From Echinicola soli (GTDB taxonomy: Bacteria; Bacteroidota; Bacteroidia; Cytophagales; Cyclobacteriaceae): 64,000 nt of DNA. Made by a program: the position numbers and the translations under genes. The stretch lies in the NCBI RefSeq assembly GCF_006575665.1, contig NZ_CP041253.1:4191001-4255000 (forward strand), in the 5' to 3' direction. The notes beneath the pieces are model-generated. The model searched no databases. It saw only the letters and a program-made list of their open reading frames with translations, and had not been told where the DNA came from. Positions 2,586-64,000 of the stretch are shown one piece after another (position 1 is the first letter of the stretch; each line of letters starts with the position of its first letter).

Positions 2586-2716
2586 AATGTTATTAATAAC
2601 CTGAGCTCGATTTTAAATACCGTCACTGCGAGCCTGCCTTTGGCTTCAGACAGGACGTAGGATAGGATTTGCAGAAAGGGCGTGGCAACTCGCCGCAGCG
2701 AGTTGCCACGCCCTTT
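2586..2716. repeat. REP-like repeat with an 18-bp perfect hairpin downstream of the sulfatase
   Basis: The left part (~2591-2640, AATAACCTGAGCTCGATTTT and on to the GCGAGCCTGCC stretch) matches the family seen at 19091-19140. The right part is a perfect hairpin, arms 2675-2692 and 2699-2716, loop CCGCAG, with the stem core GGGCGTGGCAACTCG. It sits in the 408-bp gap between the metY start and the sulfatase stop, and may also end sulfatase transcription, though there is no T tract. The rest of the gap (2440-2585) shows nothing else. Confidence 0.6.
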
Positions 2717-2771
2717 CCTGCCCTATTTCAATGCTAATAGAGTTCGAAATGAACAAATAATCATATCTTAT

Positions 2772-4817
2772 TCATCGATACCAGGCCCCAGCAGGTATTT
2801 CCTGCTTATTTCCATCAGCATCAGTCCAAAAAAGGTTTAAAGGTGTATTTCTTGTTTCCTTGAGATAGTAAATTTTTACTGGATGCAGCCCTTTTTGGAG
2901 GTGAACGGTGCCTTCAGGAGAATGGTCTGTAGCATAGTTTCCATCCAATACTCCAATATCATGAATCCTCATAAAAAAGTGACTCCTTCCCCTATCTGCT
3001 GAAAAGGTATATTTCCCATCTTCTGGAACAGCCAAATACCCCTGCCACATGACCAAATTACCTTTTGTCGACACCTTATTAATGGCTAAACTCTTAACTT
3101 TTTTACTCGAAACAGCCTTCAAGGATACTTTGGGAATCCATGCGCTGTTTACGCTATAGGTTTTGGCTACCAGCCCGTTTTTGGGTTTGTCCACTACCAT
3201 GGACGGGACCAGTGCTTCATCATATGGTCGGGGAGCTTGCTTGTCGATGATTCGATTACGTAGTACTGTTGCTTTGAAGGTGGTCTGCAAGGCCTCATTA
3301 TCGGCCGCAAGATCATTTCCCTGCTGAGGATCTTTGGTCACCTCATAAATCTCAAAGTCATCCCCATGCCCTTTTATATTGTAGCGGACTCCTACCATAT
3401 TTCCCTGTCTAAGCATCTGCATCTGTCCACGCTTTTTTCCTTGATGTGCCTCCAGAAATTCTGCATATTCCGGTACTTTTCCTCCCTGTGCATATTCCAC
3501 ATAAATCTGGCTTGCCTCCTGTTTTCCCTTTCCGGTCAAAGACGGCAACAACGAAACACCATCGGTCCTGATCGGCACAGGAGCTCCTGCGGCATCAGCA
3601 AAAGTCGCCATCCAATCGTATGAAATACTGGGTGAATTCACCACGGTGCCCGCTTTGATGTGCTCCGGCCAGTGGGCGATGGTGGCCGTTCTAAGCCCTC
3701 CCTCATATACATCACGTTTTATACCATCAAAATAAGCGAAGTTGTTAAAAAACTCGGGCGTATACGCTACATATTCCTGTGGTAGATAAGATTCCCTGGA
3801 AGGTCCATTGTCAGAAGTAAACACCACTAGGGTATTTTCAGAAATCTCTAAATCCTCCAACAGGTTCATCAAATCCCCCACCTGATCATCTATCCTTCTA
3901 TTAACGGTCGCATAGCGCTTATAGGTGTCCGGCCAGGGCACCTCCACGGTGGATGGATCTTTGTCATGATCATAGGTAGCTTCTGCAAATTCGGGATAGA
4001 TAAAGGAATCTACTTCTCCTGTAGCGGTATTGATCATGTTCCCTTCAGTCCCTAGCCACTGGACGCCGCCGTTCAGTCCCCCACCATCAGGATAACCCTG
4101 TGTAGGCAGTTCTATCACTGCATGCGGGGTATCATATGCCAAATACATAAAAAATGGTTGCTGGGAATTTTTCTCTTGGTGTTTGATGATATAATCCTTT
4201 GCCCTCGCAGTAAACAGATCTCCTGTATAGCACTTATCCAATCCCTCTACGATTTCATAGTTATGATAAACCTCTTTACTCCCCCTGTACACTCCCTCTA
4301 CTGGATAATGCTCATGGCCATCTCCGTGCCTGATATAACCAAAATACTGGTCAAATCCGACTTTCAGCGGATGAGTGGGCCAATCTGGCCCTTCTCCCTT
4401 ACCTTGAAGTCCCCATTTCCCCACTGCTACGGTTGCATAACCGGCTGCTTTTAGAACATCGGCCATCGTATGGTTTTCGCCTATTTCTTTGTCAAACTGG
4501 TTATCACGCACATGCGCATGACCTTGGTTTACTCCCATCAGGATGGAAGCCCTGGAAGGAGCACATACAGGCGCTGCTGTATAATGATCGGTCATCATGG
4601 CACCTTCTTGAGCCATATTATCCAAATGCGGTGTCATAATCCAAGGCTCACTTCTGTCATTTCGCCCTTTTCGTTCATTTTGGAAGAAAACCCCTATGTC
4701 GCCATACCCCAAATCATCGACCAATATGAAAATGATATTTGGCTGTTGTTCGGGTTGGCCTTTTGCAGGCAAAATCAATTTGGACAATACTATTAAAAAC
4801 AGAAAGAAACTTCTCAT
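2772..4817 (-). CDS. Secreted arylsulfatase (S1 family) with C-terminal PA14-like domain
   Basis: The enzyme hydrolyses sulfate esters, probably on polysaccharides or their oligosaccharides, in the periplasm or at the surface. From the ATG at 4817 it is 681 residues. An upstream in-frame ATG at 4862 exists, but the inner one starts directly with a signal peptide (MRSFFLFLIVLSKLILPAKG), so it is preferred. The metal-binding IIFILVDDLGYGD motif is near residues 29-41, and the formylglycine motif CAPSRAS begins at Cys85, so maturation needs a formylglycine-generating enzyme or anaerobic maturase not seen here. The last ~120 residues (WQGYLAVPEDGKYTFSADRG and on) resemble a PA14 carbohydrate-binding fold. 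Substrate cannot be told. It has no operon partner. Confidence 0.9.
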   Translation of the reverse strand: MRSFFLFLIVLSKLILPAKGQPEQQPNIIFILVDDLGYGDIGVFFQNERKGRNDRSEPWIMTPHLDNMAQEGAMMTDHYTAAPVCAPSRASILMGVNQGHAHVRDNQFDKEIGENHTMADVLKAAGYATVAVGKWGLQGKGEGPDWPTHPLKVGFDQYFGYIRHGDGHEHYPVEGVYRGSKEVYHNYEIVEGLDKCYTGDLFTARAKDYIIKHQEKNSQQPFFMYLAYDTPHAVIELPTQGYPDGGGLNGGVQWLGTEGNMINTATGEVDSFIYPEFAEATYDHDKDPSTVEVPWPDTYKRYATVNRRIDDQVGDLMNLLEDLEISENTLVVFTSDNGPSRESYLPQEYVAYTPEFFNNFAYFDGIKRDVYEGGLRTATIAHWPEHIKAGTVVNSPSISYDWMATFADAAGAPVPIRTDGVSLLPSLTGKGKQEASQIYVEYAQGGKVPEYAEFLEAHQGKKRGQMQMLRQGNMVGVRYNIKGHGDDFEIYEVTKDPQQGNDLAADNEALQTTFKATVLRNRIIDKQAPRPYDEALVPSMVVDKPKNGLVAKTYSVNSAWIPKVSLKAVSSKKVKSLAINKVSTKGNLVMWQGYLAVPEDGKYTFSADRGRSHFFMRIHDIGVLDGNYATDHSPEGTVHLQKGLHPVKIYYLKETRNTPLNLFWTDADGNKQEIPAGAWYR

Positions 4818-60624: not shown

Positions 60625-60646
60625 GGGACAGGCTATACTGCCTGGC

Positions 60647-61163
60647 ATGAAAATCATACCAGCCGGTCTTGTTATCCTTCCTGCCCTACAAGCTGGCTCC
60701 TCGCTAGATCAGTCCGGTGGACAGATTCTTAACGCTCTGTCCTCAGTCATCTGGATTAGTGGGCTTTCTTCCACTTTCACGGTAAAATCATCAAAAGGCT
60801 GTCCGCCGAGGCAGGAACGCTTCTTTCCCTTCGGAACTCTCATTGCTAGGATAAATATAATAATATCTTACCAATCCTCCCTTAAAAAGTAGAACCTCCT
60901 CACCTGATTCAAAACTCACCGTAAAAGGCCATACCCAAGAAGTCAAGGTCGACCTCAATGGAGCCGTCGTGCCGGATTATGTGTTTGAAGAAAACTACAC
61001 GCTCACCTCACTGGAGGAAACAGCCACTTATACCAAGGAACACAAGCACCTGCTCGAAATCTCCTCGGCTGCCAAAATGGAGGCTGATACTAAAAACAAG
61101 CTTTTCGATATTATTGATACCTACATCAGGGATTCTAAAGCCAGAGTGGCTTACGGCTCTTAA
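60647..61163 (+). pseudogene. Remnant of a tail-fibre-like / cell-surface repeat protein
   Basis: The 3' part, 60894-61163, reads TSSPDSKLTVKG, then EVKVDLNGAVVPDYVFEEN and LTSLEETATYTKEHKHL, the usual C-terminal module of tail-fibre-like proteins of Bacteroidota, but it then runs into an unrelated end (DTYIRDSKARVAYGS). The start, near 60647 in another frame, resembles a signal peptide of the same family (MKIIPAGLVILPALQAGSS). The middle repeats are missing and the frames do not join, so the gene is decayed. The whole gap 60511-61201 contains only this remnant and two hairpins. Confidence 0.6.
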
Positions 61164-61167
61164 TGAC

Positions 61168-61194
61168 AAAAGCCCCGGATTTCTCCGAGGCTTT
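61168..61194 (-). terminator. Terminator of the RHS locus
   Basis: AAAGCCCCGGA (61168-61178) and TCCGAGGCTTT (61184-61194) pair with one mismatch; on the minus strand the stem ends in CTTTTG. It lies 8 bp beyond the stop codon of the last immunity gene. Confidence 0.65.
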
Positions 61195-61201
61195 CAAAAG
61201 T

Positions 61202-61738
61202 TTAGTTACTTAATCTCTGTTGTGCAATCTTGTATTTCTGCTTAAAGGATGCTGGCAAATTGGCTTTATTTACCTTTTCCAAGCTCCTGATTACCTCCTG
61301 GTAATTTCCATCCTTCCAAGCTTTGTTGGCTGCTTCTAAGCTTTGTTGCTCTACCAGAGTGGCGGTATATTCCGAACTCCTTTGTTCGTTAAACTTCTCA
61401 AGGCTAACTAAAGCACGCTCATTTCCTTCCAACAACTTTTCCCCATCTCCCATAAAAAACAGGAACACATTATTTACAAAAGTTTCCTTTGGAAGATTGC
61501 TAAGTTTTAGGTCAGAGTTAAAATGCTCTCGCATAACCTGATTATCAATCTCAACTTCATTGAAGTGCTTTCTGCCTACCCAAAGAGTATTTGAGTTCTC
61601 TCTGGGATTATGGCTTAATGCAATAATCAATTCGTCCGATTCATACTTTACAATGTTCTTTGATTGCTCGGTCATTTCCAGTCCGTGTTCTGTGAACAAG
61701 GAATGAAGCTTTTTTGATATGAGTTGATTGAATTCCAT
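61202..61738 (-). CDS. Putative immunity protein for the orphan RHS tip
   Basis: The 178-residue cytosolic protein has no signal peptide. The first ~105 residues are an alpha/beta domain (LIIALSHNPRENSNTLWVGR at ~37-56), and the C-terminal ~60 residues look like a single helical-repeat hairpin (AANKAWKDGNYQEVIRSLEK). No family is recognised. The function rests on position: it starts 15 bp after the stop of the orphan toxin tip, the standard place for its immunity gene, and is followed by a terminator. Confidence 0.6.
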   Translation of the reverse strand: MEFNQLISKKLHSLFTEHGLEMTEQSKNIVKYESDELIIALSHNPRENSNTLWVGRKHFNEVEIDNQVMREHFNSDLKLSNLPKETFVNNVFLFFMGDGEKLLEGNERALVSLEKFNEQRSSEYTATLVEQQSLEAANKAWKDGNYQEVIRSLEKVNKANLPASFKQKYKIAQQRLSN

Positions 61739-61753
61739 AAGCGTCCTTCTTAA

Positions 61754-62296
61754 TTAAAATCCAGGTGGCATCCATGCGCCACTACCCGGGTTATAAATCC
61801 AACCTCTACCCTGAAGGATTGACCTTTCTGCATTTAAGAACCCACCCGTTGGTATCAAATTACCGTTAGGCAGTCTGTAGGAGTCAAAAATAGGTTTACC
61901 TAGGCCCATCTCACTACGTAGTGCCCCATAGTTGGCTTTCCAATTTAATGCAGGTGTTCCTTTGTTAGGAAGATGAAGCATATAATCCCCAGCTTTCCAA
62001 CCTGTCGCTTTCGTGGTTTGAGGAGCTCCCCATTTGAAAAGGTTCAATCCTCCTTGCGTACTCGACCTAGCAGCCCACCGGCTCCCTATTTTGGATACAG
62101 CCTTCACTCCTCTCACTGCCGCACTCAAAGCCATCTCCCCACCAACCATCTCTGGGATACTCAATATCGCCCCACCGAAAGGATTACTGGCAAAAGCCTC
62201 ATTTGTTCGGTAAATACCGGCGATCACTGCATTGGTCGCACCATTGGTCCGTCCCCACCAGCTCGGATAGTTAGCTTCATCCGCTACTTTCAACAA
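61754..62296 (-). CDS. Orphan RHS C-terminal toxin tip without its core
   Basis: The 180-residue frame lacks an RHS repeat core. Residues ~37-68 (NPFGGAILSIPEMVGGEMAL and on) are nearly identical to the pre-tip region of the RHS protein at 63020-64000, after which a different tip follows (~85-180): NYGALRSEMGLGKPIFDSY, then GFLNAERSILQGRGWIYNPG. No ATG exists: the frame opens at 62341 and only a TTG (62296) is available, so it is probably not translated by itself but is a stored tip that could be joined to the main gene by recombination. Toxin activity is unknown. It sits 33 bp after the first immunity gene. Confidence 0.65.
   Translation of the reverse strand: MLKVADEANYPSWWGRTNGATNAVIAGIYRTNEAFASNPFGGAILSIPEMVGGEMALSAAVRGVKAVSKIGSRWAARSSTQGGLNLFKWGAPQTTKATGWKAGDYMLHLPNKGTPALNWKANYGALRSEMGLGKPIFDSYRLPNGNLIPTGGFLNAERSILQGRGWIYNPGSGAWMPPGF
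62097..62199 (-). repeat. Homology block of the orphan tip (copy A)
   Basis: This 103-bp segment matches 63336-63438 with roughly ten differences and no gaps, in the same orientation. It codes the shared stretch GGAILSIPEMVGGEMALSAA in both proteins. It would allow exchange of the toxin tip by homologous recombination. Confidence 0.8.
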
Positions 62297-62328
62297 TACC
62301 AGCCTCTGGATTTCACAGAAGCTATCAT

Positions 62329-63018
62329 TTATGACATTTTCTTATCGTAATATTCCGAGATACTAAACTCACCAGATTTCAGGGCTTCAAAAAAGGATTC
62401 TTTAGTTTCAAAGAGTTTTTCTACTTCGTATGGGTCATGTATCATTCCATAAACTGCACCTTTTTCATTCATTGAAAGATAGTTTCCATCTTCCAAGTCT
62501 TGGATAACATAAAACTCACCTTCAGGGACTTCAATTTTGAATGTGTCATCTATGTCTAATTGAGCCAATATATCATTACTTACTGTACCAATGATTTTCT
62601 CCAACTCTTCCTTTTCCTTATTTTCATAGGGCTTTTTACGAAGACTCTTTATATCGATATTTTCATAATCAAACTGTCGGCTACTGTCATCAACCTTGTA
62701 ACCAATTAAAACACCTTCGTATAAATCAAGCTCAACATTTTTATAATCTTTGGCTTCTAAATCAAAAACCTTGATGCCTACAAGCTTATAGTTAATACTA
62801 TTATTCTTGATTGAGTTATATACATTCTGGTCACAGATTATTCGCTTCCAACCATGTTCTAAAAACTCATTTGGAACACTATCCAAAATAAAGTTTGGAT
62901 TTACTTGGCTTATCAAAAAGGAATATTTTGATGGCAATTTCTCAGCCACTGACTTCAACAAATCATACTCCCATTGTTGAATATTTTTAGCCCGTTTTTT
63001 CTTGAATAAGTTAAACAT
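62329..63018 (-). CDS. Putative immunity protein for the HNH-like RHS tip
   Basis: From the ATG at 63018 the protein has 229 residues (a start at 63042 would overlap the toxin and is less likely), leaving one base between the toxin stop and this start (TAACATG). It starts with a basic FNLFKKKRAKN segment, has no signal peptide and is rich in Asp/Glu. The C-terminal part (YVIQDLEDGNYLSMNEKGAV, then TKESFFEALKSGEF) distantly recalls the SUKH (SMI1/KNR4) immunity fold, which is uncertain. Its DNA is visibly more AT-rich than the RHS gene, a usual sign of a transferred tip-immunity pair. Confidence 0.6.
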   Translation of the reverse strand: MFNLFKKKRAKNIQQWEYDLLKSVAEKLPSKYSFLISQVNPNFILDSVPNEFLEHGWKRIICDQNVYNSIKNNSINYKLVGIKVFDLEAKDYKNVELDLYEGVLIGYKVDDSSRQFDYENIDIKSLRKKPYENKEKEELEKIIGTVSNDILAQLDIDDTFKIEVPEGEFYVIQDLEDGNYLSMNEKGAVYGMIHDPYEVEKLFETKESFFEALKSGEFSISEYYDKKMS

Positions 63019-63019
63019 G

Positions 63020-64000
63020 TTAGTATCCAAAAGTATTGCCACTATTTATTGCGTTCTTAATTTCTTTAGGGAAAAACCTATACCTGTACGGGTCTCTGAT
63101 TCCGTGCTGTATTGTATTTAAAGGCTGCAAATTCAACCTGTTGTTCTTTAGCCAATTTGGAGCCCATTTTGCCCTTTGAGGGATAAATCTATGATGGAGC
63201 TCCATATGAACTTTAAACACTTTCCCGCTGGACATCCTTATCGGCTGAAAAGTTGGTTTAGTTCTGGTAGCCCAATATGAAGTTTTAAATTGCGAGAATG
63301 TTTTGCCTCCTTTAAGGAAACTACCTCCCTTTGCTACTGCCTTCACCCCTCTCACTGCCGCACTCAAAGCCATCTCCCCACCAACCATCTCAGGGATACT
63401 CAATATCGCACCACCGAAAGGGGTGTCGGCAAAGGCCTGTCGTCCACCATATACTCCGGCCACTACCGGATTATATCCGCTGGCAAAAAGCTTATGCCAT
63501 CCTGCCAGGTCATACCCTTCCAGCGCCTCAATGGTGTGGACAGGTAAGGACACATAATCGTCACGAAATACAGGAATGGCGAAATTTCCCCGCTGACCCG
63601 TAATAGGCATTTGGGCTTCTATCGCATTTCGGGCGGAAGCACCGGCCAGCAGTGCCTTACCGGCAGCCATCCCCCAGTCTATAGAACCTCCTGCCACCAA
63701 TGTACCGGGCCATGAACCCAATGCCCCTCCTATAAAACCAGATGTCTGGGGGCTGATACCAAGCGAGTTCAGCCCCGCTGCTGAGCCGGTACTTACCGCA
63801 GTGGATGCAGCGTTTGCCAGACCGCCCATCAAAGCCCCTCTACCTACCTGACTTGCAAACTGCCCCCAGTCCCAGCTGTTGCCTGCCGTCAGACTGGCCG
63901 CATAGAACAGGGCACTCTGTGCCGCACCGGCGGCCATCGCCCCGAGGATCGGCCCCACAAACTCCCCATCCGGATCCACCGCAAACCACCGTCCCAGTGC
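63020..64000 (-). CDS. RHS-repeat protein, C-terminal part with HNH-like nuclease tip; runs off the right edge
   Basis: The visible 326 residues are the end of a much larger protein. The first codons at the edge read ALGRWFAVDPDGEF, the hallmark that closes an RHS core shell (GRWFAVDP), so the start lies outside the window; a GTG at 63979 is not the true start. A Gly/Ala-rich linker follows (AAGAAQSALFYAAS, MGGLANAASTAVST), then the conserved GGAILSIPEMVGGEMALSAA block, and the toxin tip with HMELHHRFIPQRAKW, NNRLNLQPLNTIQHG and DPYRYRF. The His-His, Asn and late His suggest an HNH/endonuclease VII-like DNase. It is followed by its immunity gene. Confidence 0.85.
   Translation of the reverse strand, partial: ALGRWFAVDPDGEFVGPILGAMAAGAAQSALFYAASLTAGNSWDWGQFASQVGRGALMGGLANAASTAVSTGSAAGLNSLGISPQTSGFIGGALGSWPGTLVAGGSIDWGMAAGKALLAGASARNAIEAQMPITGQRGNFAIPVFRDDYVSLPVHTIEALEGYDLAGWHKLFASGYNPVVAGVYGGRQAFADTPFGGAILSIPEMVGGEMALSAAVRGVKAVAKGGSFLKGGKTFSQFKTSYWATRTKPTFQPIRMSSGKVFKVHMELHHRFIPQRAKWAPNWLKNNRLNLQPLNTIQHGIRDPYRYRFFPKEIKNAINSGNTFGY
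63336..63438 (-). repeat. Homology block of the main RHS gene (copy B)
   Basis: This is the partner of 62097-62199; the conserved block lies just before the tip of the main RHS gene. Everything downstream of it (toxin tip plus immunity gene) differs between the two modules. Confidence 0.8.

Follow-up and report, generated by a model that had tools for sequence, protein, structure and literature searches.

Displaced toxin tips and a mobile tip-immunity cassette in a probably decayed RHS array of Echinicola soli

Orphan rhs-CT/rhsI and cdiA-CT/cdiI modules are tip fragments that lie downstream of a main gene, usually lack start signals, carry a varying stretch of core upstream and their own immunity gene, are sometimes interrupted by mobile elements, and can be exchanged between strains and rescued by recombination (PMC3150448, PMC3967940). 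Strings of displaced cassettes have also been described (PMC3482391, PMC5361080), and the architecture considered here is therefore a known one. It occurs at the end of a 64,000-bp stretch of the Echinicola soli genome (5.55 Mb, one contig; NZ_CP041253.1, positions 4,191,001 to 4,255,000), called the window below. In all likelihood, window positions 60635-64000 are the distal end of a decayed RHS array, and both modules found there are displaced rhs-CT/immunity pairs. One module ends in an HNH-like tip followed by a small gene, imm1; the other holds a tip, tip2, followed by a second small gene, imm2. The tip2 and imm2 families, the ends of the cassette that they form, and an array whose main gene is itself headless are new, though only relative to the libraries searched.

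The tip2 frame (61754-62296, minus strand) has no ATG and runs for 180 aa from its first in-frame start, a TTG; the usual start is likewise replaced by a TTG in the HNH tip. As in the orphan rhs-CT/rhsI modules, the tips are homologous to RHS C-termini and lie on the same strand downstream of an rhs gene, although that gene is broken here. An earlier sequence-only reading, made from the letters of the window without database searches, had described tip2 as lacking both core and ATG. The missing ATG stands, but RHS sequence is present, as the 56 residues before the toxin domain match the pre-toxin part of the HNH module at 68% (protein). The protein collection contains 68 relatives of the toxin domain (61757-62071, minus strand, 105 aa). 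Eighteen polar or aromatic positions are conserved in at least 85% (N10, K13, W25, D29, N43, W44, K45, N47, R52, E54, D63, S64, Y65, T75, N80, E82, R83 and W91), and none of the conserved positions is a His or Cys; H33 occurs in 45 of 68. Neither Pfam nor NCBIfam returned a toxin family for the 68 members, one to eight of which matched RHS-core models in the profile search while the rest gave scattered weak matches. The toxin domain was modelled with a predicted local distance difference test (pLDDT) score of 85.8, and no convincing match to tip2 was found among PDB structures. Tentatively, tip2 could be an enzyme that works without a conserved His or Cys, with an RNA-acting nuclease as the likeliest kind.

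The imm2 gene (61202-61738, minus strand, 178 aa) is the second small gene that the sequence-only reading had seen after the orphan tip. Its open reading frame starts 15 bp past the end of the tip2 frame, with its own ATG and a ribosome-site-like sequence (by eye), and its model combines an alpha/beta head with a TPR-like C-terminal hairpin. The tip ending in NPGSGAWMPPG and both small proteins had been thought to belong to no nameable family, which holds for tip2 and imm2 and less well for imm1, seven of whose 32 relatives weakly match SMI1/KNR4 (SUKH-1). Many of the families of Zhang et al. (2012) are reportedly held in Pfam. The polymorphic toxin cassettes of that survey resemble the present one in their toxin-immunity order, in the exchange of 3′ ends on a constant body and in the strings of leftovers (PMC3482391); in contrast, tip2 and imm2 match no Pfam model. 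For a search after a new antibacterial activity and its target, a toxin domain that is this conserved, co-varies with its partner and is absent from the catalogues offers a good start.

Relatives place tip2 at the end of RHS proteins. At 18 of 39 named loci it lies in an open frame of at least 583 aa, and eight of the nine long tip2-bearing frames scanned carry RHS or DUF6443 domains. In Belliella kenyensis, a toxin domain 95% identical to that of the window forms the C-terminus of a 1406-aa frame that also contains DUF6443 and RHS repeats. The earlier view of the orphan as an RHS tip, rather than a free-standing gene unrelated to RHS, is borne out by these proteins. Named isolates with tip2 include Bacteroidota, Photobacterium and Cellvibrio (both of which we take to be Pseudomonadota) and Micrococcales KH10 (presumably an actinomycete), and metagenome bins add further phyla. 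Among 295 genomes drawn from the family tip2 occurs in four, two of them among 11 same-genus genomes, and in all four an imm2 relative lies directly downstream.

An imm2-family gene lies directly downstream of tip2 at 36 of the 39 named loci (29 by tblastn at E≤1e-3 per locus alone, seven by position, length and alignment); the loci without one are L048, L071 and L072, the last two with cut tip frames. In Belliella kenyensis, imm2 (84% identity) again follows 15 bp after the tip. Moreover, tip and immunity distances correlate, with r 0.75 over 34 pairs and r 0.63 over the 21 closest, and none of 5000 permutations reached either value. This analysis excludes six loci in which parts are broken or absent (L044, L048, L065, L069, L071 and L072). 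By comparative sequence evidence, tip2 and imm2 are a genuine pair of a predicted toxin and its putative immunity protein. Against Belliella, nonsynonymous (dN) and synonymous (dS) divergence are 0.029 and 0.69 for tip2 (dN/dS 0.04) and 0.080 and 0.59 for imm2 (dN/dS 0.14). A tip long free of constraint would carry far more changes, so that either its displacement is recent or tip2 is still useful, two possibilities that one pairwise comparison cannot separate.

Tip2 and imm2 move together as a cassette of about 0.9 kb with sharp ends, made up of the toxin domain, the immunity gene and a terminator-like hairpin. In the window the cassette spans 61162-62074 (minus strand), where it is shared with Belliella kenyensis at 85.7% over 915 columns. 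Its ends were read from five pairs of loci without an adjoining blastn match, the others being Zobellia uliginosa with E. pacifica (96.3% over 917 columns), Agaribacillus with E. pacifica (92.8% over 905), Agaribacillus with Zobellia (92.7% over 981) and Pseudozobellia with E. pacifica (83.0% over 880). The start lies 10 bases inside the toxin domain in the Pseudozobellia pair and 3-14 bases ahead of it in the other four, and beyond the imm2 stop codon similarity persists for 16-42 bases in four of the pairs and for about 107 bases in Agaribacillus with Zobellia. The hairpin (61168-61194, minus strand), recognized from the sequence and an RNA fold, stands 7 bases past the imm2 stop; a consensus terminator scanner did not list it. 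Belliella has a closely similar hairpin behind imm2; the one in Agaribacillus, Zobellia and E. pacifica is different, and the other relatives compared have none there. Between Zobellia uliginosa (L037) and E. pacifica (L092/L065), the imm2 coding part is 98.3% identical, and there is no blastn match around the cassette, which marks a recent transfer between distant Bacteroidota. Since the ends are so sharp, and since a flavobacterium and an Echinicola carry almost the same copy, tip exchange in Bacteroidota now has a unit that can be tested directly.

Ahead of tip2 on the minus strand lies the module with the HNH-like tip, at 63020-64000 in the window. Its frame continues to 64048, coordinates above 64000 being window coordinates extended into the flanking loci L001 and L002. 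From a TTG start it encodes 342 aa with a short core stub, and core similarity upstream of this frame continues to 64272 in other, broken frames. The GRWFAVDP core end seen earlier at the window edge is indeed there, but an HNH tip carried on an RHS core is not confirmed, since this module is headless, as is the orphan module. In a comparison of 27 sequences, the toxin domain (63020-63334, minus strand) has E45, H47, H48, N64 and N68 invariant in 27/27 and H77 in 26/27, and the HNH/His-Me-finger pattern (His-His, Asn, His) is present; the tip is probably a DNase, nicking or cutting DNA. At E≤1, the 27 members matched no Pfam toxin family and no HNH-type Pfam model, and the model of Tox-LHH, presumably PF14411, was not among the families matched. 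Tox-LHH is an HNH/EndoVII toxin with an Imm-SUKH partner (PMC3482391). The HNH tip is like it in having E-L-H-H in nearly all sequences together with a conserved N and H, and the weak SUKH-1 matches of the imm1 relatives recall its partner; however, the conserved PQR and WAPNWL of the HNH tip are absent from the Tox-LHH motif line (PMC3482391).

The putative immunity gene of the HNH tip, imm1 (62329-63018, minus strand, 229 aa), begins with an ATG at 63018, one base past the TAA of the tip, as the sequence-only reading had it. Adjacent pairs of the two also occur in genomes G169 and G279. The tip has four matches in the 295 genomes, three with an imm1 match alongside; the fourth (E 9.6e-4) contains six stops, and the long frames of that strand do not look RHS-like by eye. 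Matches to imm1 occur in 14 of the 295 genomes and the HNH tip in only three of those 14. The earlier expectation that the small genes keep company with their tips thus describes imm2 well, and imm1 is less closely tied. The SUKH-1 matches of the imm1 relatives (best E 2.3e-4) do not include the window's own imm1, and they hint, weakly, at a SUKH-like partner. Sixteen of the 32 relatives also match the FGF model (short and weak, best E 0.0073), and one of them, P0159 of Aquimarina sediminis, is named "fibroblast growth factor" in the public record, a name that probably stems from such a short weak match.

The two modules share a pre-toxin block of 104 bp (one more than first claimed) at 63335-63438 before the HNH tip and 62096-62199 before tip2, both on the minus strand and 90.4% identical (blastn E 2e-35 within the locus). 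In ungapped register, 19-20/20 bases are identical inside the block and 2-3/20 past its toxin-side end. About 20 bp separate the cassette from the block, which belongs to the recipient side and which we read as the pre-toxin sequence of a former tip2-bearing RHS gene, displaced by the HNH module. This pre-toxin type, found in three of the 295 genomes, precedes the HNH tip and tip2 here, while E. pacifica has a different tip behind it and G260 a further one (1490-aa frame), so that the comparison of related strains once proposed for detecting tip swaps does find one pre-toxin type before differing tips. In the same-genus genome G234, an intact frame of 1613 aa is 76% identical to the present core over 605 aa but ends in a different tip. 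The orphan modules downstream of it match those of the E. soli array (82% over 1366 and 939 columns), and one of them carries the immunity gene that follows the long frame in E. soli.

The array as a whole covers about 20 kb and runs beyond the window edge. It begins with a single long RHS frame, which is followed by eight displaced tip modules and, last, a core remnant with no tip. All modules lie on the minus strand, and those upstream of the window each have a piece of RHS core, a differing C-terminal tip and usually a small gene. The long frame with its tip (1143 aa; 76884-80315) is broken; a small gene follows it (76504-76887), and then modules 1 (~75357-76428), 2 (~73327-74622), 3 (~71130-72575), 4 (~69000-70773), 5 (~67186-68553) and 6 (~64934-66612). 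The HNH module (63020-64272) is the seventh, 13 kb downstream of the long frame, the tip2 module (61754-62296) is the eighth, and the last trace of the array is an RHS core remnant without a tip (60635-60866), 82.6% identical to 64007-64247. At the protein level, the core of module 1 matches that of the long frame at 34% over a short stretch; the corresponding identity is 75-81% in modules 2-4, 56% in module 5, 37% apart from one 74% patch in module 6 and 33% in the HNH module; for the tip2 module and the core remnant no protein match to the long frame was found at E≤1e-3. Compared with the described orphan rhs-CT/rhsI modules, which are enterobacterial (PMC3150448, PMC3967940), this is a Bacteroidota system of DUF6443-type RHS, its main gene is decapitated, and its last modules share more core with each other than with that gene.

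An in-frame TAA (80316-80318) lies just upstream of the 1143-aa frame, and upstream of it a 259-aa frame starts inside the DUF6443 head domain (profile positions 19-129). Beside the cut head, on the opposite strand, is the C-terminal part of a transposase with its own stop codon (L002, ~2608-2945, plus strand), presumably of IS3 type as judged by eye from its motifs. DUF6443 occurs once in the genome, in this cut frame, and Rhs_assc_core has 11 matches genome-wide, eight in this array and three in a second (C1:4028249-4048135; L085, L086), so that 11/11 lie in headless arrays. The second array, whose longest frame is 799 aa and also lacks the DUF6443 head, is interspersed with relaxase/TraG-like and IS66-like genes (named by eye) and has no blastn match to the first. 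Among the genome-wide profile matches to Rhs_assc_core and DUF6443, no intact RHS head domain and no full-length recipient RHS gene was found. With no intact recipient and both modules headless, the locus lends support to displaced remnants and none to a usable tip store. The sequence-only reading of a silent replacement tip survives as far as the orphan RHS tip goes and not as a ready replacement for an active HNH gene.

A history of displacement can be proposed. The tip2-imm2 cassette would once have ended an RHS protein that shared the pre-toxin block of the HNH module; later, a module of core, HNH tip and imm1 would have been inserted ahead of tip2. The insertion probably came about by recombination within the block; the repeat would be its scar, and tip2 would have lost its core and start codon in the process. 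When it ends a complete RHS protein, as it does in Belliella, tip2 would reach the inside of a neighboring cell, with kin protected by imm2. The array of E. soli has lost its delivery head, and so tip2 is probably silent, while imm2 could still be produced from its own start. Several points weigh against this account. The divergence of the core follows no smooth gradient from module to module, with 34% in the first module, then 75-81%, and both a 74% patch and 37% in the sixth. The array core was found in four of 11 same-genus genomes, intact in one, and the locus is thus not widely kept. Part of the correlation between tip and immunity distances could come from shared ancestry alone. Finally, the E. 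pacifica cassette is nearest to that of Zobellia and the window cassette is best compared with that of Belliella; inheritance alone therefore does not explain why the cassette sits behind a module with pre-toxin sequence in both Echinicola genomes, and the sequence of events proposed here is one that we infer.

Could tip2 instead be held in reserve, ready to be joined to a working RHS gene by recombination in the shared block, as happens in Salmonella, where the homology is 522 bp at 95% identity (PMC3967940)? A block is present here as well, and tip2 has kept an intact frame that closely resembles the one in Belliella. However, the block joins two headless modules and no main gene, the long frame has no N-terminus and a stop ahead of it, the only DUF6443 head lies in a cut piece, and the second array offers neither that head nor a match to the first; a live store of tips is thus unlikely in this strain. 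Still less can be said for a chance likeness to RHS in genes that form a stand-alone intracellular toxin-antitoxin system or some unrelated pair. Some relatives do have short open frames around the tip (91 aa in L054, 111 aa in L067), but the long RHS-bearing frames elsewhere, together with a tip2 that has no ATG and starts with RHS pre-toxin sequence, largely refute the idea and leave it very improbable.

A stronger competitor, to which we give somewhat less than an even chance, is that the array is kept for its immunity genes, against kin or neighbors firing these tips, with the toxin parts as passengers. In E. pacifica, imm2 is whole although the tip2 frame is broken, and G015 (L016), a genome in which tip2 has no match, carries an imm2 relative (27% identity) among other small genes, possibly as an orphan immunity gene. 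Expression of orphan immunity has been documented for the contact-dependent growth inhibition system of E. coli EC93 (PMC3150448). Retention for protection has been proposed for the type VI secretion system effector arrays of Vibrio cholerae, where new effector-immunity units displace old effectors and immunity genes remain (PMC5361080). In those arrays, however, the old effector was replaced, whereas the tip2 frame here is whole and its dN/dS lies below that of imm2, so that there is no sign of immunity alone being kept. Displaced modules at the end of a decayed array remain the preferred explanation, and the array bears on whether such loci are retained as weapons or as immunity, as it shows that a set of spare tips can outlive the gene able to use them. 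A wider proposal stands at roughly even chances: that tip2-imm2 founds an undescribed family, with a toxin of about 105 aa that has neither conserved His or Cys nor a solved-fold match and a two-part immunity protein (alpha/beta head and TPR-like hairpin), that its cassette, beginning at the toxin domain and ending shortly behind the immunity gene, moves across at least three phyla, and that both RHS arrays of this genome, headless as they are, persist for their immunity genes.

Some smaller observations concern the relatives and the surroundings of the cassette. A contig from a bin labelled Deltaproteobacteria (L040), with a tip2 83% identical to the window copy and an imm2 at 40%, may belong to Bacteroidota. 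Ahead of a tip2-bearing DUF6443 frame in Bacteroidales 6E (L038, 953-4315) lies a DnaG-type zinc ribbon that scores below the cut-off (E 3e-4), perhaps only because the open frame runs into a neighboring gene. Five further tips of the array (L001, 5934-6812, 8186-9526, 12130-13575, 14327-15622 and 16357-17025, minus strand) have no Pfam match at E≤0.01, and each is a possible undescribed toxin. Lastly, a gene fragment convergent with the cassette (60915-61164, plus strand), single copy in its own genome and ending in FDIIDTYIRDSKARVAYGS, looks like fused gene remnants; a similar ending, read by eye, lies convergent behind the cassette in Bacteroidales 6E.

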